This document shows, one piece after another, positions 1-35,362 of a DNA stretch of 43,714 bases (its first letter is position 1; every line of letters begins with the position of its first letter). Source of the DNA: an uncultured cyanobacterium (lineage in GTDB: Bacteria; Cyanobacteriota; Cyanobacteriia; Cyanobacteriales; Microcystaceae); the NCBI GenBank assembly GCA_903887375.1, contig CAISPN010000030.1:1-43714 (forward strand). The letters run 5' to 3'. Both the position numbers and the translations under genes were made by a program. The notes under the pieces are model-generated. The model ran no database searches. It worked only from the letters and a program-made list of their open reading frames with translations, and had not been told where the DNA came from.

Positions 1-1463
1 CTAATATTTGTAGTTGGCACTCTGGGCGCGATACCATTCGCAATACTTTTGCCCGCCAAGCAATACCTATGACATGGGATTTTACTGAAGCGAATCCCAT
101 GAGTGACTCGACGGGCAATTTTAATGGTGCAATTGATTGGGTAGTCGAAGTCATCAAGAATTGGTCTTGTTCCCCACAAGGAAGAGTTGTACAACTAGAT
201 GCTACCGCTAAAATCGATGGCAAAACAACGCCCCGAATCATTTCTACAGATCCTCCATACTACGACAACATAGGTTATGCCGACCTCTCAGACTTTTTCT
301 ATGTCTGGTTACGACGTTCGCTTAACTCAGTCTACCCAAACATCTTCAGCACCCTACTCGTTCCGAAAGCACCCGAATTAGTCGCTACTCCACATCGTTT
401 TGGTGGAGATAAAGCAAAAGCACAAATCTTTTTTGAAGAAGGTTTAACTAAAGCCTTTGCAAGAATGAATGAGATAGCAGATTCTGACTATCCTTTAACT
501 GTTTATTACGCTTTTAAACAATCTGAAACAGAAGAAGATAGCAATAATAATAAAAAAACTGCTGTAGCTTCAACTGGTTGGGAAACTATGTTAGAAGGCT
601 TGATTGGCTCTTGTTTTAGTATTAATGGCACTTGGCCCATGCGCACAGAATTGAGCAATCGCAGTGTGGGTTTAGGTACTAACGCCCTCGCTTCTTCCAT
701 CGTCCTAGTCTGCCGCCCCCGTCCCACCGACGCCCCCAAAGCCACCCGCCGCCAATTCCTCAACGAACTCAAACGCGATCTACCCCAAGCCCTCAAACTC
801 TTGCAACAAGGCAACATCGCCCCAGTTGACTTAGCTCAAGCCAGTATCGGCCCCGGCATGGCGATCTTCTCCAAATACACCGCCATTCTTGAATCCGATG
901 GCTCCCCCATGCGCGTCCGCACCGCCCTGCAACTGATCAACCAAATTCTCGACGAATTTCTCACTGAACAAGAAGGGGAATTTGATGGGGATACCCGTTG
1001 GGCGCTCACCTGGTTCGAGCAGTACCAATTCAATGATGGACAGTATGGCGATGCAGAAACTCTCTCCAAAGCCAAAAATACAAGTGTTCAGGGCATGGCT
1101 GAAGCGGGAATACTAGAAGCAAAGGCAGGTAAAGTGCGACTGCTCAAGCGAGGCGATCTGACGGCTAATTGGAAGCCTGAAAGCGATTCACGGATACCTG
1201 TATGGGAAGTCTCTCAGCACCTTATCCGTACCCTCGACCAAGACGGCGAAACCGGAGCGGCAGAACTGCTTACCAAACTCGGTAGCCGAGGAGAGTTGGC
1301 AAGAGATCTCGCTTATCGCTTGTATAGCCTCTGCGATCGCAAAGGCTGGACACAAGAAGCAATTGCCTACAACAGTCTTGTCATCTCCTGGCCAGAAATC
1401 ACCCGTCTTGCCAGTGCATACAAACAAAGTAAGTCAGTACCCACCCAACTAAATTTGCTCTAA
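1..1463 (+). CDS. DUF1156 adenine-specific DNA methyltransferase, C-terminal part (5' cut by window edge)
   Basis: Likely N6-adenine DNA methyltransferase of the DUF1156 (COG1743) family, found next to DUF499 ATPases in restriction/defence loci. The frame is open from base 3, so the gene starts outside the window; an internal ATG at 69 is not the start. The catalytic DPPY motif is encoded at 249-260 (DPPYYDNIGYADL), followed by the FFYVWLRRSL stretch typical of the family. About 487 residues are visible; family members as I know them are about 900-1000, so the N-terminal half is missing. The stop is 4 bp before the DUF499 gene, so the two are probably co-transcribed. The gene is richer in GC than the core genes, mainly around 690-1000, which suggests transfer. 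DNA methylation is known for the family; a defence role here is inferred. Confidence 0.85.
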   Translation, partial: NICSWHSGRDTIRNTFARQAIPMTWDFTEANPMSDSTGNFNGAIDWVVEVIKNWSCSPQGRVVQLDATAKIDGKTTPRIISTDPPYYDNIGYADLSDFFYVWLRRSLNSVYPNIFSTLLVPKAPELVATPHRFGGDKAKAQIFFEEGLTKAFARMNEIADSDYPLTVYYAFKQSETEEDSNNNKKTAVASTGWETMLEGLIGSCFSINGTWPMRTELSNRSVGLGTNALASSIVLVCRPRPTDAPKATRRQFLNELKRDLPQALKLLQQGNIAPVDLAQASIGPGMAIFSKYTAILESDGSPMRVRTALQLINQILDEFLTEQEGEFDGDTRWALTWFEQYQFNDGQYGDAETLSKAKNTSVQGMAEAGILEAKAGKVRLLKRGDLTANWKPESDSRIPVWEVSQHLIRTLDQDGETGAAELLTKLGSRGELARDLAYRLYSLCDRKGWTQEAIAYNSLVISWPEITRLASAYKQSKSVPTQLNLL

Positions 1464-1467
1464 CCCT

Positions 1468-4400
1468 ATGGCCATAAGTAATCGAGAACGAGTCGGACGC
1501 GCATTAGAGTCTCTTCGAGACGGAATCTATCCATTTTTTGAGCGAGAGATGATTGCGGCCTATGGCGAAAAGTGGATTGCCACCGCCTTAAGTTGTCTAC
1601 CTGATAGCTACACAGCTCGAAAGACAGGTGATGCGGTTCTCAAGGAAGACGTTTCCTCCTTACTGATTGCCATGTGGGAGCAGTGGAATTCTGTCTTTCG
1701 TAAAACCCTAGGGCAGACCGAGCGCAGTTTAGTGAGTGAACTGCGGAATACTCGAAATGCCTGGGCGCATAATGACCCTTTCACCCTCGATGATGCTTAC
1801 CGCGCATTTGATAGCATCTCTCGCTTGCTAAGTGCTGTTTCAGCACCAGAAGCCCAAGAAGTCGAGAAGCAAAAGCAGGAGATCTTGCGAATTCGGTTTG
1901 AAGAACAGGCCAAACGAGAGACGCGCCGCGCCGCTATCGCACCCACAGAAGGGCAGCCACAACAAGGACTAAAACCTTGGCGGGAGATCGCTACCCCGCA
2001 CCCCGATGTTGCATCAGGCCGCTACCAGCAAGCCGAGTTCGCCGCCGACCTCTGGCAGGTATATCTCGATGAAGGTTCTGATGAATATCGTCTTCCGAAC
2101 GAATTTTTTCGGCGTACTTACATAACTGAAGGACTCAAGCACCTTCTGACGAATGCCCTCGTTCGTCTTGCCGGAAAGGGAGGAGATCCGGTTATTGAGC
2201 TACAAACAAACTTCGGTGGCGGTAAGACTCACGCCATGCTCGCGCTCTTTCATCTTTTCTTTGGTACGGCAGCTAAAGACCTTCCTGGTATGGAGCCAGT
2301 CTTTAAGGCAGCAGCCGTCAGCGAGCCGCCCAAAAACGTCAATACTGTTGTCATCGTTGGCAACAAGATTTCTCCCGGTAAGGCAGAAAAGAAATCTGAC
2401 GGGACAAAGGTTCACACGATTTGGGGAGAGATCGCGTGGCAGCTAGGCGGAAAAGAAGCCTATGAAATGGTGCAAGAGGCTGATGAGACAGCCACCAACC
2501 CTGGTGATGTCCTTAAAAATTTGTTCAATCGCTATGCCCCTTGCTTGATTCTCGTTGATGAGTGGGTTTCTTATGCCCGCCAGCTTCACGAACGAGCCGA
2601 TCTGCCCGGAGGCAGTTTTGATACTCACTTCACCTTTGCTCAGACGTTGAGTGAATCGGCAAAAAATGCAAATAGCACTCTTTTAGTGGTGAGTATCCCT
2701 TCCTCTGACATTGAAATTGGGGGAGATCGCGGCAAAGAAGCCCTAGACCGACTCAAGAATGCCATCGGGCGGGTAGAATCCCCTTGGCGGCCTGCCAGTG
2801 CCGAAGAAAGCTTCGAGATCGTCCGACGCCGATTATTCCAGACCACTACTGACCCACGAGCTTTTGTGGAACGCGATGCGGTCATCAAAGCCTTTTCCGA
2901 TATGTATCGTAGTCAGGCACAAGAATTTCCCACTGAATGCCGAGAAGCAGATTACGAGCGCCGTTTGCGCGAAGCCTATCCCATTCACCCAGAGTTTTTT
3001 GATCGCCTCTATTCGGACTGGTCAACCCTCGATAAATTCCAGCGAACCCGTGGCGTGTTGCGCCTCATGGCCAAAGTGATTCACTCCCTCTGGGAGCGGG
3101 ACGACAAGAGTTTGTTGATCATGCCCGCTCATATCCCGATGGATGATGCTCAGGTACAGTCAGAAATGACTCGCTACTTGGATGACAATTGGGTTCCAAT
3201 CATCGAGAAAGATGTTGATGGATCTAATTCTTTGCCCCTTGATATAGATCGACAAAATCCCAACTTTGGCCGCTATTCTGCTTGTCGCCGAGTCACGCGC
3301 ACCATTTACCTTGGTTCTGCACCCACGATGCGCGCCGCCAACCGAGGGCTGGAAGATCGACGTATCAAGCTCGGTTGCGTTCAACCCGGGGAGAGTGTAG
3401 CTACTTTTGGCGATGCCCTACGGCGACTTACGGATCGCGCCACCTACCTCTATATCGATGGCAACCGTTACTGGATTTCTAATCAGCCGAACGTGACTCG
3501 CACTGCCCAAGATCGGGCTACTCAGATCCTTGAGGAGCGTTATAAGGTCTGTGACGAGATAGTCCGTCGATTGAAAAGCGACAAATTGCGAGGAGAGTTC
3601 GGAGCAGTTCATATTGCCCCCGAGTCGTCTGCGGACATACCAGACGATCCTAATCTGGGGGTTCGGCTCGTTGTTCTTAGCCCAGTACACTCCCACGGCA
3701 GATCTGCGGAAGACAGCCTAGCTCACCATTTGGTGGAGGAGATTCTCAATCAAAGAGGAGGTAGTCCTCGTTATTACAAAAACACACTGGCGTTTCTTGC
3801 CCCTGACAAGACGAACTTGGAAACCGTAGAGAAGAACGTTGCCCAGTATTTAGGCTGGAATTCGATTGTTGCGGACAAAGTAGCACTTAATCTGGATGTT
3901 TCCCAGAGTAACCAGGCGACAACCAAGCGCGACCAGACCGACAAAGACGTAAGCACGATTCTCAACCAAACCTATCAGTGGTTGTTAGTTCCGGATCAAC
4001 CTGACCCGCAAGGCAAGATTGAATGGATAGAAACGCGCCTGCAAGCGAGTGATGACTCGCCCATCATGAGAGCCAGTCGAAAGCTTGTGCATGAGGAACA
4101 GCTCATCTCGGGATATTCGGGTAGCCGCCTTCGCCTAGAAGCGCTAGACCCTTACCTATGGCGAGATACCAACCACACCGATCTCAAGCGTCTTTGGGAA
4201 TATCTCGCGCAGTATATATACTTGCCCCGACTTAAAAACCCTGACGTTCTGCTTCAGGCAGTGAAGGAGGGTTTGGCCTCAACGATTATAAAAGATAACT
4301 TTGCCTACGCTGAGGGCTGGGATGAAGCGAATCAAAGATATATGGGTCTAAAGATCGCTCAACTCGTAAATCCCACCATCAGCAGTCAGAGCCTTTTAGT

Positions 4401-4797
4401 GAAACCAGATGTCGCCAATAAGCAGTTAGAAGAAGATAAACCTATCACGGCTGCTGGAGATCGTTCTACCGATACCGCGTCGAGAGACTCGGTACCGCCA
4501 TTGTCTCCAGATGTTGGAAAAGCAAATCCACCTGATAACGGTAGTGTCGAAAAGAAACCAGTCCTGCGAAGGTTTTACGGAAGTGTCGAGATCGATGCAT
4601 TACGGATCAATCGCGACGCTCCGGCGATTGCCAACGAAATTATCCAACACATCACCTGCCTGAAGGGTGCTCGTGTTAAGGTAACGCTGGAAATTGAGGC
4701 AGATATTCCTGACGGCGTACCGGATGATGTCGTAAGGACGGTGACGGAGAATTGTCGGACGCTGAAGTTCAGTAATCAGTCGTTTGAGCAGGAGTAA
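1468..4797 (+). CDS. DUF499 AAA-type ATPase with N-terminal Swt1-like HEPN domain
   Basis: Large P-loop ATPase of the DUF499 (COG1483) family, 1109 aa, near full family length. Residues 1-125 look like a Swt1-type HEPN domain and contain R96-N-A-W-A-H101, fitting the RX4-6H signature of HEPN ribonucleases. A charged coiled-coil linker (about 128-155) follows. The Walker A is GGGKTH at 250-255 and the Walker B is ILVDEW at about 361-366. A low-complexity, Pro/Asp-rich linker (about 1005-1050) precedes a small C-terminal domain ending SNQSFEQE. The gene starts 4 bp after the DUF1156 methyltransferase stop, so the pair forms one module. GC content is high relative to the core (31 of 60 bases in 2041-2100). 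Related ATPases occur in BREX-like and other methyltransferase-linked defence loci. RNase activity is inferred from the motif only. Confidence 0.85.
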   Translation: MAISNRERVGRALESLRDGIYPFFEREMIAAYGEKWIATALSCLPDSYTARKTGDAVLKEDVSSLLIAMWEQWNSVFRKTLGQTERSLVSELRNTRNAWAHNDPFTLDDAYRAFDSISRLLSAVSAPEAQEVEKQKQEILRIRFEEQAKRETRRAAIAPTEGQPQQGLKPWREIATPHPDVASGRYQQAEFAADLWQVYLDEGSDEYRLPNEFFRRTYITEGLKHLLTNALVRLAGKGGDPVIELQTNFGGGKTHAMLALFHLFFGTAAKDLPGMEPVFKAAAVSEPPKNVNTVVIVGNKISPGKAEKKSDGTKVHTIWGEIAWQLGGKEAYEMVQEADETATNPGDVLKNLFNRYAPCLILVDEWVSYARQLHERADLPGGSFDTHFTFAQTLSESAKNANSTLLVVSIPSSDIEIGGDRGKEALDRLKNAIGRVESPWRPASAEESFEIVRRRLFQTTTDPRAFVERDAVIKAFSDMYRSQAQEFPTECREADYERRLREAYPIHPEFFDRLYSDWSTLDKFQRTRGVLRLMAKVIHSLWERDDKSLLIMPAHIPMDDAQVQSEMTRYLDDNWVPIIEKDVDGSNSLPLDIDRQNPNFGRYSACRRVTRTIYLGSAPTMRAANRGLEDRRIKLGCVQPGESVATFGDALRRLTDRATYLYIDGNRYWISNQPNVTRTAQDRATQILEERYKVCDEIVRRLKSDKLRGEFGAVHIAPESSADIPDDPNLGVRLVVLSPVHSHGRSAEDSLAHHLVEEILNQRGGSPRYYKNTLAFLAPDKTNLETVEKNVAQYLGWNSIVADKVALNLDVSQSNQATTKRDQTDKDVSTILNQTYQWLLVPDQPDPQGKIEWIETRLQASDDSPIMRASRKLVHEEQLISGYSGSRLRLEALDPYLWRDTNHTDLKRLWEYLAQYIYLPRLKNPDVLLQAVKEGLASTIIKDNFAYAEGWDEANQRYMGLKIAQLVNPTISSQSLLVKPDVANKQLEEDKPITAAGDRSTDTASRDSVPPLSPDVGKANPPDNGSVEKKPVLRRFYGSVEIDALRINRDAPAIANEIIQHITCLKGARVKVTLEIEADIPDGVPDDVVRTVTENCRTLKFSNQSFEQE

Positions 4798-27509: not shown

Positions 27510-28292
27510 ATGTCAAAGCCAGATCTGATGGAAAACTACCCAAATAAATTATTCCAATCTGGTACAACTCTAGAGTTGGATTCTATCAATGTTCAATTAG
27601 AAAATAAAACTGCCCCAGAGATAATCAACTGGGCATATGATTCCTTTCAAGAAGGTCTGGTACTGAGCACTAGCTTTGGAATACAATCTGCTGTGATGCT
27701 CCATTTAGTAACTAGCATCATACCCAATATCCCGGTTATCTGGATCGATACAGGCTATTTACCAGCAGAGACCTATATCTTTGCTCAGCAGCTTAGCCAA
27801 AGATTAAACCTTAATTTAAAAGTATACCAATCTCCTTTGAGTCCTGCCAGAATGGAAGCTCTCTACGGTAAGCTCTGGGATAGAGATGATGTCGAATCGC
27901 TCAATCGCTACGACCAAATTCGCAAGGTTGAACCAATGCAGAGAGCTCTAAGTGAGCTCAAGGCGACCGCTTGGTTAGCAGGGCTAAGGCGCTCACAGAC
28001 CAGTCATCGCCATGGACTCTCTACAATAGCTAAACAAGGTGAATTCTACAAAGTGCACCCTATTTTGAACTGGCATTCTCGCGATATCTACCAGTACCTA
28101 AATCAACATAACTTGCCTTATCATCCTTATTTTGACTTGGGCTATGTAACTGTGGGAGACTGGCATTCGAGCCGTCCTTTAATGGCCGCTGATACTGACG
28201 AAAGAGATACTCGTTTTAAGGGAATCAAACAAGAATGTGGCTTACATTTGACTCCTAGTGAAGCAAAAAGTTTAGATTCAAGTACATTGTAA
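27510..28292 (+). CDS. cysH: phosphoadenylyl-sulfate reductase
   Basis: Reduces PAPS to sulfite with thioredoxin in assimilatory sulfur metabolism. The 260-aa protein has the PP-loop region [17 protein letters not shown], the [11 protein letters not shown] block, and [13 protein letters not shown]. The catalytic Cys is in the C-terminal ECGLH (about Cys243). The extra CC...CxxC cluster of APS reductases is absent, so it is a PAPS reductase. It converges on the DrmB gene with only 2 bp between stops. Confidence 0.96.
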
Positions 28293-28294
28293 TT

Positions 28295-30163
28295 CTATTC
28301 AAAAAAAGCCAGATCGCTATTGGCAAGAGTTTTAACCAACAAGCTACGATCGAGAAATTTATTGCCCTTTTCACAGGAAGTCTCTGGGGTAAACAGACAG
28401 GAATGACAAGCAGCCCAATGCAGACTGCCATCTTGGGAATTGGCATCATGTTCAGCGCAAAGAGGATCCGAGGCGCAGAGTTTGACCTGTTCAAGAGCTT
28501 GAGAGATATGATAGCCAAGGGTACTAGATTCTCCCAAGCTCACTAAACCTCCCATAGTCCCTTCACTATCAGAAGCCGCTGTATAGATCAAAATACCAGC
28601 TTGTGGTCCGCCTTCTTGATCCGGTTTTTTGGAATAGATTCTCTCTCGTAAACTGGCACTACTATAACCGCAGGCAATAGAAAACTGACGGATTAAAGCA
28701 TGCGAGAGGGAATGGAGCAGCAGATACCTCATACTCGGGGTAAGAGACTTGTTAGGATTTAGATTGCGACGACTGAGCCAATCACCATAAGCTAATTTAA
28801 CCTTGTTGGCTTTATTGCGCAGATCTTGGCTATCTTCCCAAACTTGTATAGTAGATTCATTAAATTGGATAAAAATACCCTCTCCTCTGGTTTCACAGCT
28901 AGGGACCCATTGCGGAGGATTACTGCTTAGTGGGACTATTGTAATTTCCTCAGATTCAATCTCATCTCCAAAATCTCCAGAAGATTGAATTCGGCTAAAG
29001 CCAACTAGAGACATGAACTCCCGTAGTTTTTCTACCAGGACAATTTGACTGAAATATTTAGTAAAGCCAGCAGGCGGTTCTACAGGACGAAGGCGAAAAT
29101 TCTCATTATTTAAATTCACATTGGCTTGTGAAAAAACTTGCCATTCAGGGCTTTTGAGATCTATTTTCTTTTGTTCGAGTTCTGGTTGTTGACTATTGTC
29201 TTTTTTCTTGAGAATAATCTGCCATATCTCTTCAGTTGGATATTTGGCTAGAGGTTTAAGATCACTTTTGGCAAAGATACGAGCCATACTCCTGAGCTCT
29301 TCTATGCTTAAAATTTCACTTAGATCAGACCAAAACTCCTCAACTAGTTGCTCAAGCTCAGAAGAATTCTCCGGCAAAGAGAGAACAGAGAGAGTTAGAG
29401 GAAACCAGCTATTAGAAGCGCCAAGTAACATAGTGCTCATCTGCTCTGAGCATTTCTCATCAAAGTCATTTAGATGAGGATTCCTAGCACGGCATCGGGG
29501 CATATGGGTTTTTCCAGATTCACCAAAAGCATCAGAGAGGATACGGGGTGACAAGTCAGCGCACTTAGTGCATTTTACGCTGATTTCTGTAGTTGAGCCG
29601 GAAGAGCCAGATTCTTCAAACTTTAAAGGACCTGTGCATTCACTATTGCCCCGATGGACAAAATAGAGCCAGGGAAAATCATCCAGATGTCCCTGACTGC
29701 AGGCTACTAAAAAACGAGCAGGAATTGCTGCTGGTTCTTTTTTATATTTGGGTGAACCTTGACAATTAGCATGCACATAACAAATATCATTGAGACGAAA
29801 TGGATTTGATTTGATCTTAAATAATCCTGATTCTAGAGGAGCTAGCAGACGGCAACGAGAACAAACCATCCAGCTAGGAAAAGGCGCTACTGGCACTCCC
29901 ATAAAAGGATTGACATTCTCCCCTCCCTCACTAGGAACTATTGGCGGCCTGCGAAGGCTTTTAACCTGATTGCCTAGCCTAGTTTTCACCGCAGCCAATA
30001 ACCTAGGTTCATATAGCGCTTGTGAATCGTCAATTAGCCATTGATCCAATCCCATAACCAAAACAGAAAGCTGGGGCAATTCAGCTATTGCGCCAATACC
30101 ATAGGTAAATAGGAGCTGACTGGGTCTGATATTACCAACTTTATACTTATTGTTCTCGCGCAT
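28295..30163 (-). CDS. drmB: DrmB family protein (DUF1998), DISARM-type, orphan
   Basis: A 622-aa protein of the DrmB family, known from DISARM anti-phage systems, where DrmB works with the helicase DrmA. The opening RPSQLLFTYGIGAIAELP is the family start. Zinc-binding candidates follow: MVCSRC, YVHANC, VKCTKC and PRCRA. The C-terminal DUF1998 region has LLHSLSHALIRQFS, GILIYTAASDSEGTMGGLV and the final cysteine cluster HWAACHSCLFTPETSC. No DrmA helicase, DrmC phospholipase or methylase is adjacent, so it is an orphan here. It lies between core genes cysH and cimA. A TATTATA box about 30-40 bp upstream of the ATG could give it its own promoter. Confidence 0.88.
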   Translation of the reverse strand: MRENNKYKVGNIRPSQLLFTYGIGAIAELPQLSVLVMGLDQWLIDDSQALYEPRLLAAVKTRLGNQVKSLRRPPIVPSEGGENVNPFMGVPVAPFPSWMVCSRCRLLAPLESGLFKIKSNPFRLNDICYVHANCQGSPKYKKEPAAIPARFLVACSQGHLDDFPWLYFVHRGNSECTGPLKFEESGSSGSTTEISVKCTKCADLSPRILSDAFGESGKTHMPRCRARNPHLNDFDEKCSEQMSTMLLGASNSWFPLTLSVLSLPENSSELEQLVEEFWSDLSEILSIEELRSMARIFAKSDLKPLAKYPTEEIWQIILKKKDNSQQPELEQKKIDLKSPEWQVFSQANVNLNNENFRLRPVEPPAGFTKYFSQIVLVEKLREFMSLVGFSRIQSSGDFGDEIESEEITIVPLSSNPPQWVPSCETRGEGIFIQFNESTIQVWEDSQDLRNKANKVKLAYGDWLSRRNLNPNKSLTPSMRYLLLHSLSHALIRQFSIACGYSSASLRERIYSKKPDQEGGPQAGILIYTAASDSEGTMGGLVSLGESSTLGYHISQALEQVKLCASDPLCAEHDANSQDGSLHWAACHSCLFTPETSCEKGNKFLDRSLLVKTLANSDLAFFE

Positions 30164-30222
30164 AAAATCCCCAGATAAAATAATAATCTGTGCTTATAAT
30201 ATACTATTTTTTCTGATTAAGG

Positions 30223-31809
30223 TTAAAATGTATTGCGATCATTGAGCAACAGTCCATATTCTACAGCTTCAACTGTTGCTTTATAGGAAGCCTCTAGAAT
30301 ATTAGCTGAGACCCCAACAGTACTCCAGCGCTGCCTTCGGTTACTTGATTCAACCAGAACTCTGGTCTTAGCATCGGTTCCAGATCCACTATCAAGAATC
30401 CTGACTTTGTAGTCTGTTAAATAAAATTCAGCTAAAGATGGATAAAATGCTAAAAGAGCTTTACGCAATGCCTGATCTAAAGCAGAAACTGGTCCATTGC
30501 CTTCTCCAACTTCCAGGATATCTTTGCCATTGACAGAAAGCTTGATAGTGGCCAAAGATCTGCTCGATGGAGTCAATAGGTCACAATGTACCTGAAATCC
30601 TTTTAACTCGAAGAGCTCTTTTCTTTTTCCCAGAGCATCAAGCATCAATAGCTCAAAGCTGGCTTCAGCTGCTTCAAATTGATAACCTTGGCTCTCAAGA
30701 AGTTTGAGTTTCTCTAAAATTATACGAGCTGCTTTATCTTCTTTTTCTAAGGTAAGTCCAAAAGTCCGAGCTTTAGATAATATATTACTGATCCCTGCTT
30801 GCTCGGAAATTACAATTTTTCTTTTATTGCCTACTTTGTTTAGGTCAATATGTTCATAAGTAATTGGATTTTTCTGAACTGCCGAAACATGAATACCACC
30901 TTTATGCGCAAATGCAGAACTACCGACAAAAGGCGCGTGATCATCAGGTGCCAAGTTCACTATCTCGGAAATTAAGTGACTATTGGGAGATAATTGAGCC
31001 AACTGTCTATCTTCTAGGCAGTAATAGCCCATCTTGAGCTGAAGGTTAGGAATCAATGTACAGAGATTGGCATTTCCGCAGCGTTCACCATAGCCATTGA
31101 TGGTTCCCTGGATCATCTCTACTCCTTCTAAAACCCCTGCTAGAGCGTTAGCCACAGCTAAACCTGAATCATTATGGGTATGGATTCCCAGAGGAAGTGA
31201 TTCTCCTAATTGCTCGCGCAATTGTTTGATGCTTTGAGTGATCTGCCCCGACAAAGTACCACCATTGGTATCGCAAAGAACCAGCCATTGCGCTCCAGCT
31301 TGTTGAGCTGCTTGGAGGGTAGAGATGGCATATTGGGGGTTATGGAAATAACCATCAAACCAATGCTCAGCATCATATATTACTCTTTTTCCTTGGCTGA
31401 TTAGATATTCAATACTGCCATAGATCATATCTAGATTTTCCTCTAGAGTAGTACCTATGCCCTCAGTAACATGAAGATCCCAAGATTTACCAAAAATCGT
31501 CACCCATGTAGTTTCAGCAGCGAGTATCGACTGCAGCAATGGTTCATTTTGAGGCTTACGTCCAGGCCTACGAGTAGAACAAAATGCTACTATTTCTGAA
31601 TTTTTGAAATTAATCTCTTTAGCTTTGGCAAAAAATTGTTCATCTTTGGGATTAGCACCAGGCCAGCCACCTTCAATGAAAGTTATACCCATTTCATCTA
31701 GGGTTAGAGCAATCTTGAGTTTATCTTCTAGAGAAAGGGAAATGCCCTCCATTTGAGAACCATCTCTGAGGGTTGTATCATAGAGCCAAATTTGACGTTC
31801 CTTTCCCAT
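30223..31809 (-). CDS. cimA: (R)-citramalate synthase
   Basis: Condenses pyruvate and acetyl-CoA to citramalate, the first step of a threonine-independent isoleucine route. It is about 528 aa, an HMGL-like TIM barrel followed by a LeuA-type allosteric domain. Motifs are LYDTTLRDGSQMEG, IHTHNDSGLAVANALAG (metal-binding HTHND), NGYGERCGNANL and HKGGIHVSAVQKNP. The C-terminal regulatory domain includes the DYKVRILDSGSGTDAKTRV region. I chose ATG 31809 (MGKERQIWLYDTTLRDG), which matches the family start; a GTG at 31833 would add eight residues. Divergent from the VWA gene. Confidence 0.93.
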   Translation of the reverse strand: MGKERQIWLYDTTLRDGSQMEGISLSLEDKLKIALTLDEMGITFIEGGWPGANPKDEQFFAKAKEINFKNSEIVAFCSTRRPGRKPQNEPLLQSILAAETTWVTIFGKSWDLHVTEGIGTTLEENLDMIYGSIEYLISQGKRVIYDAEHWFDGYFHNPQYAISTLQAAQQAGAQWLVLCDTNGGTLSGQITQSIKQLREQLGESLPLGIHTHNDSGLAVANALAGVLEGVEMIQGTINGYGERCGNANLCTLIPNLQLKMGYYCLEDRQLAQLSPNSHLISEIVNLAPDDHAPFVGSSAFAHKGGIHVSAVQKNPITYEHIDLNKVGNKRKIVISEQAGISNILSKARTFGLTLEKEDKAARIILEKLKLLESQGYQFEAAEASFELLMLDALGKRKELFELKGFQVHCDLLTPSSRSLATIKLSVNGKDILEVGEGNGPVSALDQALRKALLAFYPSLAEFYLTDYKVRILDSGSGTDAKTRVLVESSNRRQRWSTVGVSANILEASYKATVEAVEYGLLLNDRNTF

Positions 31810-31898
31810 AAACAATTTTTTGATATCTGACACAATCTTTGATTATATTGTAGAGCAACAATTTATTTGAGTAACAGAGAAGTTTGGTGTGTAGTACA

Positions 31899-32003: not shown

Positions 32004-32663
32004 ATGGCTATTGGATTTCCAGAATTTGTTGATAACCCCGAAAGTCGTTGTCCAGTGTTGCTTCTACTCGATACTTCTGGATCTATGGCAGGTCCTGCTA
32101 TAGAAGAGTTAAACCGTGGGATAGCCTCTTTTAAAGAGGATGTATTGAAAGATTCTCAAGCCTCACTCAGCGTCGATTTAGCGGTGGTTACCTTTGGAGG
32201 AACCGTCAAAAAAATACAAGACTTTGTCACGGTGGATGAGTTTACACCACCTCTACTGAAACCTGATGGTTATACTCCTATGGGTGAAGCCATTGAATAT
32301 GCTCTAGATCTGATAGAAGATCGCAAGGTAGCCTACAAAAATCATGGTATACAGTATTATCGTCCTTGGATCTTTATGATTACAGATGGAGCACCTACAG
32401 ACGCATGGACATTAGCCTCTCAACGTCTCTTGCAAGCAGAAAATGAACGCCGCCTCCTTTTCTTTGCTGTGGGTGTACAGGGAGCAGATATGGATAAACT
32501 ACGTCAAATAGCATCCCCTGAACGTCCTCCTATCTTTTTAAATGGTTTAGACTTTCGCTCCCTCTTCCTCTGGTTAAGTAGTTCTATGAAAAGGGTTTCG
32601 ACTGGTAAAATTGGGGACTCTATATCCTTACCTCCCGTCAGTTGGGGCACTATTAGTACATAG
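32004..32663 (+). CDS. TerY-like von Willebrand factor A domain protein
   Basis: A 219-aa single VWA domain. The metal-ion-dependent adhesion site is complete: DTSGSM (about 23-28), Thr in DGYTPMGEA and Asp in MITDGAPTD. The start MAIGFPEFVDNPESRCPVLLLLDTSGSM (as positions 1-28) matches TerY-like proteins. It is the first gene of a VWA-PP2C-kinase triad, known as TerY-P from comparative genomics of tellurite-resistance-linked systems. It has no signal peptide, so it is cytoplasmic. The next gene begins about 14 bp after its stop. The role in sensing or protein assembly is inferred. Confidence 0.88.
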   Translation: MAIGFPEFVDNPESRCPVLLLLDTSGSMAGPAIEELNRGIASFKEDVLKDSQASLSVDLAVVTFGGTVKKIQDFVTVDEFTPPLLKPDGYTPMGEAIEYALDLIEDRKVAYKNHGIQYYRPWIFMITDGAPTDAWTLASQRLLQAENERRLLFFAVGVQGADMDKLRQIASPERPPIFLNGLDFRSLFLWLSSSMKRVSTGKIGDSISLPPVSWGTIST

Positions 32664-32676
32664 AAGGGGCTTGATT

Positions 32677-33447
32677 GTGGATTGTAAAGCGGTCGTCTCT
32701 AGCGAGATAGGTACTAGTCATCAAAAGTTAAATTTACCCTGTCAAGATTATGCTCAATATTGTCTCCTAGAAAATCGGGCTATTATAGGCGCTGTCAGTG
32801 ATGGTGCTGGTAGTGCTAAACATTCTGAAATAGGCTCTAAATTGGCCGTAGAAACTGTTTTAGGCTACCTTAAAGGGGTTGAAGGGCATACAATAAAATC
32901 TGAAGACTCCTCACCTCCATCTTTAAAAAATGTCAGACAAATATTTACTACAATAGTTGAAAAAGTTCAGGAGGAATTACAAAAACTATCAGACAAAAAT
33001 AACTATAAAATCGAAGACTTAGCTTGTACTTTGTTGATTTTTATAGCGACTTCAGAGGAAATAATGGCTATGCAAATCGGAGATGGTTTTATAGTTATAC
33101 GTCCTTCTAATGAGGAATATCAACTTCTTTTTAAACCTAATAAAGGAGAATATGCCAATGAGACTACTTTTATAACTTCATCTACTGCGATAGAAGATAT
33201 GCAGGTGGATATTATCTCTAAGCCTATATCTTTTATTTGTGCTTCTACAGATGGTTTAGAAAAGGTTGCTATTAAGTTAAGTAATTACTCACCTTATGAG
33301 CGCTTTTTCAGTCCCTTAGAAACCTATCTTCAAGAGACAGTAGACCTAAAAGAAGAAGACTATCTTAAACCGTTTTTACAGTCACCATCTCTTAATAGTA
33401 GGACAGATGATGATAAGTCATTATTAATAGCTTTATTTAAGGAATAA
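32677..33447 (+). CDS. PP2C-type Ser/Thr protein phosphatase (TerY-P triad)
   Basis: A 256-aa metal-dependent phosphatase. Motifs in order are NLPCQDY (metal Asp), AVSDGAGSAKHSEIGS, ACTLLIF, MQIGDGFIVI, STDGLEK and the final TDDDKSLL with its metal Asp. All acidic ligands are present. I chose GTG 32677 (MDCKAVVSSEIGTSHQ), because AAGGGG lies 7 bp upstream and the family begins near here; a longer frame from ATG 32611 runs inside the VWA gene. It is followed 10 bp later by the kinase gene and probably opposes that kinase. Confidence 0.88.
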   Translation: MDCKAVVSSEIGTSHQKLNLPCQDYAQYCLLENRAIIGAVSDGAGSAKHSEIGSKLAVETVLGYLKGVEGHTIKSEDSSPPSLKNVRQIFTTIVEKVQEELQKLSDKNNYKIEDLACTLLIFIATSEEIMAMQIGDGFIVIRPSNEEYQLLFKPNKGEYANETTFITSSTAIEDMQVDIISKPISFICASTDGLEKVAIKLSNYSPYERFFSPLETYLQETVDLKEEDYLKPFLQSPSLNSRTDDDKSLLIALFKE

Positions 33448-33457
33448 AGGTGCATCC

Positions 33458-35362
33458 ATGCCTTATCTAATCTGCGCTGAGACCAACAAAGCTATTCAAT
33501 TAACAAAAAAAATTGCCGATAGTGGAGAAGGGACCGTCTGGAAAACAGAAAGAACTGGAATATTAGCTAAAGTCTATAATTTGGCTACATCAGAAAGGGC
33601 AGATAAACTCAGTTTAATGGTAGTTAACAAGCCCAGTGATCCTAATGATCATAAAAATCATATTTCTTTTGCTTGGCCTCAATCACTATTAACTGATGAT
33701 GCTAGTCAAATTGTCGGTTTTCTCATGCCCCAAGTTGTTGGAGGAAGAGAGCTAATAGATATATACAGTCCTAGACTACGTAAAAAACAAGGCCTAGAAG
33801 TAGACTGGAGATTTCTCCATGTAGTATCAACTAATATTGCTCAAATAGTCTGGTCTATCCATAATAAAGGTTATATTATTGGTGATATTAAACCACAAAA
33901 TATTCTAGTTAATAATCAAGCGTTACCTTCAATTATTGATACAGATTCCTTTCAAGTCATAGATCCACAAAATGGGAGAATACATCATTGTTTAGTAGGA
34001 TCACAGGGCTTTACTCCACCAGAATTATTGGGAGAAGACTTATCAACCACTAGACAAACTACCTATCATGATCGTTTTCGTCTGGGGGTAATTCTCTATT
34101 TTCTCTTGTTTGGTACTCATCCCTTTGGAGGAAAGTGGACAGGGGCAGGAGATTCTCCCCAACAAGACGACTTGATTAAAAATGGTTGGTGGCCTTATGC
34201 CAAAAATAGCCCTATTCAACCGGGACCAAGTACCATCAGTCTGGATATTGTAGATTCTCAAATCAAGCAATATTTCCTAAAATGCTTCAATGATGGTTAT
34301 GACAATCCTGCATTACGTCCTTCAGCAGAAGATTGGTACTACGTCTTGAGAAGATCTGTTGAGGATTTGGTGGATTGCCCTGATGTAAATACTCATATAT
34401 ATAGAGCAGGTTATCAAAGTTGTAATTGGTGTCAACGTGAAGCAACCCTAGGAGTTGATATTTTCCCAGGAAAGATTAAGCCTAAACCTTCAGTGCAAGT
34501 GAGTTTTTCTAGCTTAGAATTTACTGCTCAAAATTTAGGGGAAAGAATCACCCGAACTATTACTATTGTTAATCCCACTCCAAAAACTCTTTTAGAAGGT
34601 AAATGGTCAGTTGAACCTCACCCCAACGATCCACCCCATACACCCGACTCTCATACTTGGATTTCTTTCTCTCCTAAAGAATTTCAAGGTAATCAAGTTG
34701 ATTGTAAAATCACAGTTGATACTAGCAAACTAAAATCACAATCCAGTGGTAGTCGAGTAATTGTATTAAAAACTAATGCTATTCCTGAAAGTTATTCCCT
34801 AAAAATACAAATTAAAACAGCACAACCCATCTCACTAGAGATCAAGAAATTACCTTACCCAATTATGACAATGCTGCTATTTGTATCTCTTTTTGGTGGG
34901 TATTCTTTGGTGGCGGGGCTATTGCTGCTGGTGCTGCTGGGGCTGGTGCTGAAGGGGCTGGAGCTGGGGCTGAAGCAGTGGCTGGAGCTGGTGGCGGGGC
35001 TATTGCTGCTGGTGCTGGCGGGGCTGGTGGTGATGCCGGGGCTATTGCTGCTGGTGCTGGTGCTGCTGGTGCTGGCGGGGCTGCTGGGGCTGGGGCAGTG
35101 GCTGGCTATCTATCTCAACCTACCCAAAGCAGAAAGATATGGGTCAGGCTTTATTTTATTCTTTCATACTCTTGCAGTAATCTTAGGGACTAGCATAGGA
35201 ACCGCGTTAAAAATAGGACTACTAGCAAATAATTATGTATTTTTAGCTATTTTAGGAAGTGGTGGTTTGTTGTATTTCTTAATAGTGCGTCATTATTTAC
35301 GGAGTAAATCTCTGATTGCAGATTTTAAAGAAAAAGATAGAAATTTAATCTCGTTGAGTTAG
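33458..35362 (+). CDS. membrane-anchored Ser/Thr protein kinase (TerY-P triad)
   Basis: A 634-aa protein. The kinase domain is about 15-300: glycine loop SGEGTVWK, Lys38 in AKVY, catalytic Asp143 in IIGDIKPQNIL (the usual HRD is replaced by IGD), DTD 161-163 in place of DFG, and a D-x-F-x-LGV helix. A Cys pair (SCNWC) and an Ig-like beta domain (about 345-445) follow. Hydrophobic segments fill about 465-625. The segment 484-550 is Leu/Val/Gly-only low complexity encoded by a GC-rich repeat (34909-35108) within AT-rich DNA. ATG 33458 has AAAGGTG upstream. It probably senses stress at the membrane with the VWA and PP2C partners. Confidence 0.85.
   Translation: MPYLICAETNKAIQLTKKIADSGEGTVWKTERTGILAKVYNLATSERADKLSLMVVNKPSDPNDHKNHISFAWPQSLLTDDASQIVGFLMPQVVGGRELIDIYSPRLRKKQGLEVDWRFLHVVSTNIAQIVWSIHNKGYIIGDIKPQNILVNNQALPSIIDTDSFQVIDPQNGRIHHCLVGSQGFTPPELLGEDLSTTRQTTYHDRFRLGVILYFLLFGTHPFGGKWTGAGDSPQQDDLIKNGWWPYAKNSPIQPGPSTISLDIVDSQIKQYFLKCFNDGYDNPALRPSAEDWYYVLRRSVEDLVDCPDVNTHIYRAGYQSCNWCQREATLGVDIFPGKIKPKPSVQVSFSSLEFTAQNLGERITRTITIVNPTPKTLLEGKWSVEPHPNDPPHTPDSHTWISFSPKEFQGNQVDCKITVDTSKLKSQSSGSRVIVLKTNAIPESYSLKIQIKTAQPISLEIKKLPYPIMTMLLFVSLFGGYSLVAGLLLLVLLGLVLKGLELGLKQWLELVAGLLLLVLAGLVVMPGLLLLVLVLLVLAGLLGLGQWLAIYLNLPKAERYGSGFILFFHTLAVILGTSIGTALKIGLLANNYVFLAILGSGGLLYFLIVRHYLRSKSLIADFKEKDRNLISLS
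34909..35108 (+). repeat. GC-rich GCTGGTGCT-type low-complexity repeat inside the kinase gene
   Basis: About 200 bp built from variants of GCTGGTGCT and GGGGCTATTGCTGCTGG. The core GGGGCTATTGCTGCTGGTGC occurs at 34915, 34996 and 35038. The kinase frame reads Leu/Val/Gly; the frame one base behind (34909 register) reads only Gly/Ala and a few Asp/Glu. Both are open through the block. Confidence 0.85.

Follow-up and report, generated by a model that had tools for sequence, protein, structure and literature searches.

The drmB gene that stands alone on contig C30 of this draft genome seems to encode one half of a DrmAB pair whose other half is made at a separate locus. We analysed the whole contig as one window (43,714 bp, source genome G000). 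Judging from sequence, we consider it reasonably probable that the window DrmB belongs to a dispersed class-1 DISARM of the alpha subtype and assembles in trans with the DrmA of contig C94. This reading rests on the presence and integrity of both proteins, their motifs, their separate loci in draft assemblies, a placement shared between species, selection, and the match of an alpha DrmA to an alpha DrmB. Assembly in trans is the simplest reading of these observations, and the window DrmB would most likely work as part of a DISARM core complex. The labels alpha (the window's subtype) and beta were coined in this analysis. G001 is the sister species, G002 a near relative in the same genus and G098 a near relative; G073 and G116 belong to another family, G116 being an uncultured Gloeocapsa MAG that is 77% complete. 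All assemblies are drafts of 124-430 contigs.

The preliminary description had placed a complete 622-aa DrmB between cysH and cimA, and this is confirmed by the open reading frame, NCBIfam, PADLOC and an alignment to the protein of a solved structure (Table 1). The protein covers 604 of 604 positions of the NCBIfam model DrmB_fam (NF038324) at 698 bits, against a cut-off of 240, and matches PADLOC DrmB PDLC02583 at 271 bits. Residues 4-621 align with 7s9v_B, the DrmB of the solved Serratia DrmAB complex (E 1.6e-179). The sole Pfam match is the MrfA zinc-binding (MZB) domain at residues 486-590, and the four zinc cysteines are kept; a DrmB with DUF1998/MZB, one of the features of class-1 DISARM, is present in the genome. 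The plus strand of 28295-30163 carries 34 stops. On control genomes the DrmB model gave matches in 2 of 14, one of them above the cut-off.

Table 1. Positions of the window features discussed in the text
Feature	Position	Strand	Remarks
HmaB (C-terminal half, frame open to contig start) and HmaC	69-4797		Hma defence system
cysH, convergent neighbour of drmB	27510..28292	plus	PAPS reductase domain; an M1 peptidase gene takes its place in the sister species
drmB, alpha subtype, standing alone	28295..30163	minus	622 aa, full length, ATG start; alpha clade by tree
cimA-drmB gap, 59 bp	30164..30222	minus	Probable drmB promoter or leader (putative function)
cimA, upstream neighbour of drmB	30223..31833	minus	HMGL-like and LeuA dimerisation domains; adjoins drmB in the sister species too

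Of the order cysH-drmB-cimA, one side is conserved. The pair cimA-drmB is found in two of three genomes of the genus, but cysH adjoins drmB only in the window. Of 30 cimA loci inspected across the family, two have cimA next to drmB, both from G000 and G001. In one other genome (L188) cysH lies near cimA, on cimA's other side. The gap between cimA and drmB is probably the drmB promoter or leader. Between the window species and its sister, 52 of its 59 aligned positions are identical; for the same species pair, the gap before the split drmA is identical at 49 of 81 positions and that before the lone drmD at 93 of 141. A 28-mer from the gap core matches only the two cimA-drmB loci (seven overlapping records among 256 loci), and G002 has a different gap, of 21 nt, after cimA. 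A hairpin in the gap was considered and rejected, its fold being no better than those of shuffled sequences (z 0.18). Next to cimA, genes for a VWA protein, a PP2C phosphatase and a protein kinase lie in a row (window 32004-35362), presumably a TerY-like triad, and a relative of the kinase also stands beside cimA in the sister species.

A drmB without drmA at its side is the exception among related loci. An order-level search with the window DrmB gave a match in 54 of 291 genomes. With matches under about 240 residues set aside, 23 genomes, the window's included, held a DrmB at least 49% identical over at least 426 residues; other full-length matches were 32-36% identical, and the rest consisted of short fragments together with a group whose matches fall into two segments at 28-36%. 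Two subtypes of class-1 DISARM can be told apart among these loci, each with its own DrmA, DrmB, DrmMI and DrmD. In 18 of the 23 genomes drmA, or a piece of it, lies beside drmB. Three have no drmA there (G000, G073 and G116), one (G229) has the two genes at the two ends of a single contig, as a circle would give, and in another (G254) the drmB locus is cut by a short contig. A wider scan of a contig collection of 84,980 species with two peptide patterns gave 466 DrmB relatives; the best 80 were kept, a set that does not include the split DrmB of G073. A drmA ORF lies directly upstream on the same strand in 75 of these best 80, "upstream" meaning that drmA ends no more than 400 bp past the drmB start and no more than 1500 bp short of it. 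Two clearly lack it, L095 (the sister species) and L104 (G116). Of the other three, L123 has drmA and drmB in one ORF, L096 starts at a contig edge, and L155 is broken, with a drmA piece upstream of drmB. DrmMI occurs in many of the nearest relatives with paired genes, and DrmD is present too where it was retrieved. In L123 (3996-9854) DrmA and DrmB form a single ORF of 1952 aa. In G098 (L080, 6006-11216) beta drmA and drmB are convergent with an overlap of 24 nt, perhaps an intermediate of operon break-up.

The gene had been called an orphan away from any DISARM locus. It does stand alone locally: C30 yielded no match when the genome was searched for DrmA, DrmC, DrmMI and DrmD. An alpha drmA, however, lies on C94 of the same genome. 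This second DrmA, found by the DrmA search, is 1221 aa long and alone on its contig; its counterpart on contig C92 of the sister species has 1231 aa and is 83% identical. With one DrmA model the two reach 991 and 1007 bits; no beta DrmA in the six genomes searched exceeds 563 with it. The two DrmA models also gave matches in 7 and 2 of 14 control genomes. DrmA as a membership feature of class-1 DISARM is present twice, alpha on C94 and beta on C69. The sister species repeats both placements, with drmB right after cimA and alpha drmA after holB (on the opposite strand) and a 120-122-aa ORF. Alpha drmA again lies apart from drmB in G073 and G116, and in both genomes it overlaps the same next gene by 4 nt, which suggests co-transcription (L083 7019-11487, L084 1141-4151). 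By Pfam this gene is ldpA in G073. LdpA is a redox/clock protein. Presence is concordant in six of six genomes: alpha DrmA and DrmB both occur in G000, G001, G073 and G116, and neither occurs in G002 or G098. Pairing is not perfect, however, as G117 (at a contig edge) and G046 have DrmA matches above 800 bits and no DrmB match; the G046 match covers model positions 6-646 of 837. The earlier proposal that DrmB may work in trans with a partner elsewhere is probably right, with an alpha DrmA on another contig in both G000 and G001.

If drmA and drmB were adjacent in the real genome, their separation would be an artefact of assembly. The assemblies are drafts, the contigs of G116 are short and carry its drmA and drmB at their edges, and drmB in G073 and drmA in G001 lie close to contig ends, at 0.2 kb and 1.5 kb. 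Contig ends in G000, however, are at least 13.5 kb from drmB and at least 7 kb from drmA, and two separate assemblies place the same upstream neighbours before drmB and before drmA. We regard an artefact as the least probable of the alternatives considered here.

The phylogeny of solitary DrmBs proposed in the preliminary description unites the four split DrmBs as a single clade (98/97) within the alpha group; the tree holds 74 of 103 collected DrmBs, after removal of duplicates and of distant loci. Split DrmAs occupy the equivalent region of the alpha group but do not group together. The starred branches of the quick DrmA tree (64 of 92 collected DrmAs, 86 without fragment loci, the partial L084 kept) force two changes, and in the careful tree (24 rows, without L084) 0% of bootstrap trees join the split DrmAs. 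A single origin of the split DrmAs is recovered in neither tree, but the AU test does not reject a single clade (p 0.105). Both partners, split DrmA and split DrmB, have long stem branches. It is possible that there was one break-up with later moves, or that there were two break-ups.

Split drmA and drmB are under purifying selection, with dN/dS about 0.1. Between G000 and G001, dN/dS values (NG86) were 0.133/1.25 for drmB, 0.102/1.34 for drmA and 0.102/1.30 for the lone drmD, and 0.091/1.16 and 0.158/1.51 for the housekeeping genes cimA and holB; dS in this pair is near saturation, and the ratios are therefore rough. For G073 against G116, drmB gave 0.137/0.84 and drmA, over the part common to both, 0.099/0.83. 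The resulting drmB ratios are 0.11 and 0.16 for the two pairs. The G000 DrmA aligns with residues 128-1317 of the 1325 of 7s9v_A and the G073 protein with residues 126-1313; nothing in the split DrmA alignments corresponds to the first 125-127 residues of 7s9v_A, and G073 DrmA is missing the first ~100 residues of paired DrmAs. The motifs GGGKTEA, DELH and QATSRVGR are present in the DrmAs of G000, G001 and G073, with alanine instead of proline ahead of the Walker A glycines in the genus. The split DrmA also keeps the valine aligned to V1296 of Serratia DrmA, proposed as a methylation sensor in PMC9142583.

These data bear on the notion that drmB is a relic, the decaying leftover of a lost DISARM operon. 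A broken operon, no DrmC match and no alpha DrmMI in the genome would agree with it. But drmB is a full-length ORF in four genomes, its dN/dS is 0.11 and 0.16, and the gap before it is conserved, so that as a reading of drmB decay is largely rejected; we consider it very improbable. The stable DrmB that had been envisaged is upheld by the full-length frame and dN/dS of about 0.1 between species, and the relic envisaged beside it is not.

Other DISARM parts are scattered through these genomes. Beta drmA and drmB are paired on C69 of G000, with no DrmC, DrmD or DrmMI within the 22 kb examined around them; the beta drmD lies on C33 and the beta drmMI on C103. A DrmD of 1046 aa stands apart on C33 (1101 bits to PDLC02621) and is 59-65% identical to full-length DrmDs of beta loci. 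Its counterpart in the sister species (contig C166, 1048 aa) has the same neighbourhood, with genes of 434, 153 and 379 aa. G002 (next to a contig end) and G098 likewise have a beta DrmD away from drmA and drmB, and the same is true of the alpha DrmDs of G073 (1072 aa) and G116 (996 aa, truncated by its contig). Five of these six lone DrmDs score 1095-1349 bits against PADLOC DrmD PDLC02621, and the sixth, from G098, is 65% identical to the G000 protein. Because the search model also gave matches in 7 of 14 control genomes, the name DrmD rests on PADLOC, identity and the tree. In that tree of 20 DrmD ORFs of at least 990 aa, the four beta lone DrmDs group together (93/99) and the two alpha ones do so too (100/100). 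PADLOC PDLC02572, labelled DrmA, scores DrmDs up to 1269 bits over their whole length (L231 3784-6936), and the label looks wrong.

Searches of G000 and G001 found no alpha DrmD or alpha DrmMI in either genome, and the DrmMI search gave no match at all in G001. In G000 the beta DrmMI breaks off with the end of contig C103, near residue 918 by comparison with a relative of 1335 aa, and a C-terminal DrmMI piece lies at the start of contig C101. All that G116 shows is a short N-terminal stretch of alpha DrmMI, at the edge of a contig. The DrmMI model gave matches in 6 of 14 control genomes. In G000, G002 and G098 the beta DrmMI gene is interrupted by the end of its contig (L225 7835-10333, L226 3-3110, L227 3-686), and C-terminal pieces lie at or near other contig ends (L252, L253, L254); perhaps a variable target-recognition part breaks assemblies. 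In G000 and G073 a SNF2-type helicase gene lies next to a methyltransferase gene (L228 92-4753, L229 5163-10141), with DpdE as the best PADLOC match in both, possibly another DISARM-related pair. For DrmC, one model (PDLC02605) found none in six genomes and gave matches in 3 of 14 control genomes. Thus the earlier question whether DrmA, DrmC or helicase genes lie elsewhere in the genome is answered for alpha DrmA (C94), beta DrmA (C69) and DrmD (C33), but DrmC was not found with the one model. Class-1 gene adjacency is lacking in this draft (drmB C30, alpha drmA C94, drmD C33, drmMI C103, beta drmAB C69) and there is no DrmC match; we therefore do not file the set as a canonical DISARM locus.

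The pair on C69 raises two points. The preliminary description had weighed its view against a full DISARM locus elsewhere with its own DrmB and a window copy confined to one strain. A second drmB does lie beside a drmA, on C69, in the other subtype, but the window copy is not limited to a single strain. It could also be asked if the alpha DrmB, acting as a second regulatory subunit, partners the beta DrmA encoded on C69 rather than the C94 DrmA. G000 has the C69 DrmA and G001 a homologue of it. However, G073 and G116 each hold one DrmB and one DrmA match, both alpha (G116 being incomplete), an alpha DrmA occurs in four of four genomes with a split DrmB, and alpha and beta DrmBs are only about 32-36% identical. 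Such a partnership seems improbable.

Partnership with the methyltransferase/ATPase island at 69-4797, suggested earlier, is rejected: the island encodes HmaB and HmaC. The Hma system consists of HmaA, HmaB and HmaC together. It is a defence system with two of its parts, HmaB and HmaC, seen in the same window as drmB, but its protein families are unlike DrmB's; no link to DrmB was seen, and DrmB is not part of it. The HmaC of the window has an N-terminal Swt1-like HEPN domain.

The closest known system is class-1 DISARM (DrmD, DrmMI, DrmA, DrmB, DrmC; Serratia 7s9v/7s9w), with which the pair shares homologous DrmA and DrmB, the motifs, the V1296 equivalent and the zinc cysteines; unlike there, the G000 genes lie on separate contigs, and neither a DrmC match nor an alpha DrmMI or DrmD was seen in that genome. 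The repair helicase MrfA/YprA also combines an SF2 helicase with an MZB/DUF1998 zinc module (PMC12458937). There it is one polypeptide; in the split pair, helicase and MZB module are separate proteins encoded at separate loci, and by sequence both are members of DISARM families.

This likeness leads to the main rival: a domesticated DrmAB, in which the split pair serves chromosome maintenance, like MrfA (YprA), and no longer defence. Under it, the housekeeping neighbours and the loss of methylase and nuclease would be found because the role is one of maintenance. G001 has no DrmMI and no DrmC match, the neighbours are cimA, holB and, in G073, ldpA, evolution is apparently vertical, and DUF1998/MZB is common to DrmB and MrfA (PMC12458937). 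On the other hand, alpha DrmD persists with the split pair in G073 and G116, the putative methylation-sensor valine is kept, and the distribution is patchy, the pair being absent in one of three genomes of the genus and one of three of the other family. We consider this rival unlikely, though it deserves to be taken seriously.

For the favoured reading, a split pair that assembles in trans, we propose that an alpha class-1 DISARM operon was broken up and that DrmB and its cognate DrmA (C94) are made from separate loci and would join after translation. DrmA would be the SF2 motor, and DrmB would supply the MZB/DUF1998 (HAR) module. The complex could load on 5'-overhang DNA without host marks and so stop incoming DNA. 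Helpers may come from other scattered genes, beta drmD and drmMI in G000 and alpha drmD in the G073/G116 lineage; alternatively, host nucleases may stand in for DrmC. We infer complex formation, antiviral activity and the sharing of helpers between subtypes from sequence comparison. Several findings weigh against this reading: no alpha DrmD or DrmMI in G000 and G001, no DrmC from the one model, DrmA trees that keep the split DrmAs apart, the uncovered DrmA N-terminus, and the DrmA matches without DrmB in G117 and G046. According to PMC9142583, DrmA and DrmB associate 1:1, with DrmA wrapped around DrmB; phage targeting requires that the complex form, and DrmC is dispensable. Antarctic cyanobacterial MAGs have drmMII and drmD without a complete DISARM, according to PMC9716671. 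Among the matches listed in a literature search whose coverage mostly leaves out subscription journals, there was no report of separate drmA and drmB loci.

More broadly, and tentatively, DISARM may in these lineages have dissolved into separate genes, probably with their own promoters, whose products meet in trans; it would be vertically inherited, possibly serve maintenance, and be invisible to neighbourhood methods. Gene neighbourhood is the usual basis for finding and counting defence systems. A DISARM with its genes apart would be called absent or "orphan", though its genes are conserved and matched in subtype. The split also amounts to a natural experiment on the mutual dependence of DISARM parts: DrmA with DrmB, and DrmD, survive separation, and DrmC seems lost. 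It raises the question why a defence island turns into scattered genes in some lineages. If the reading is true, DISARM would here be a vertically inherited cellular machine and no longer a mobile defence island.
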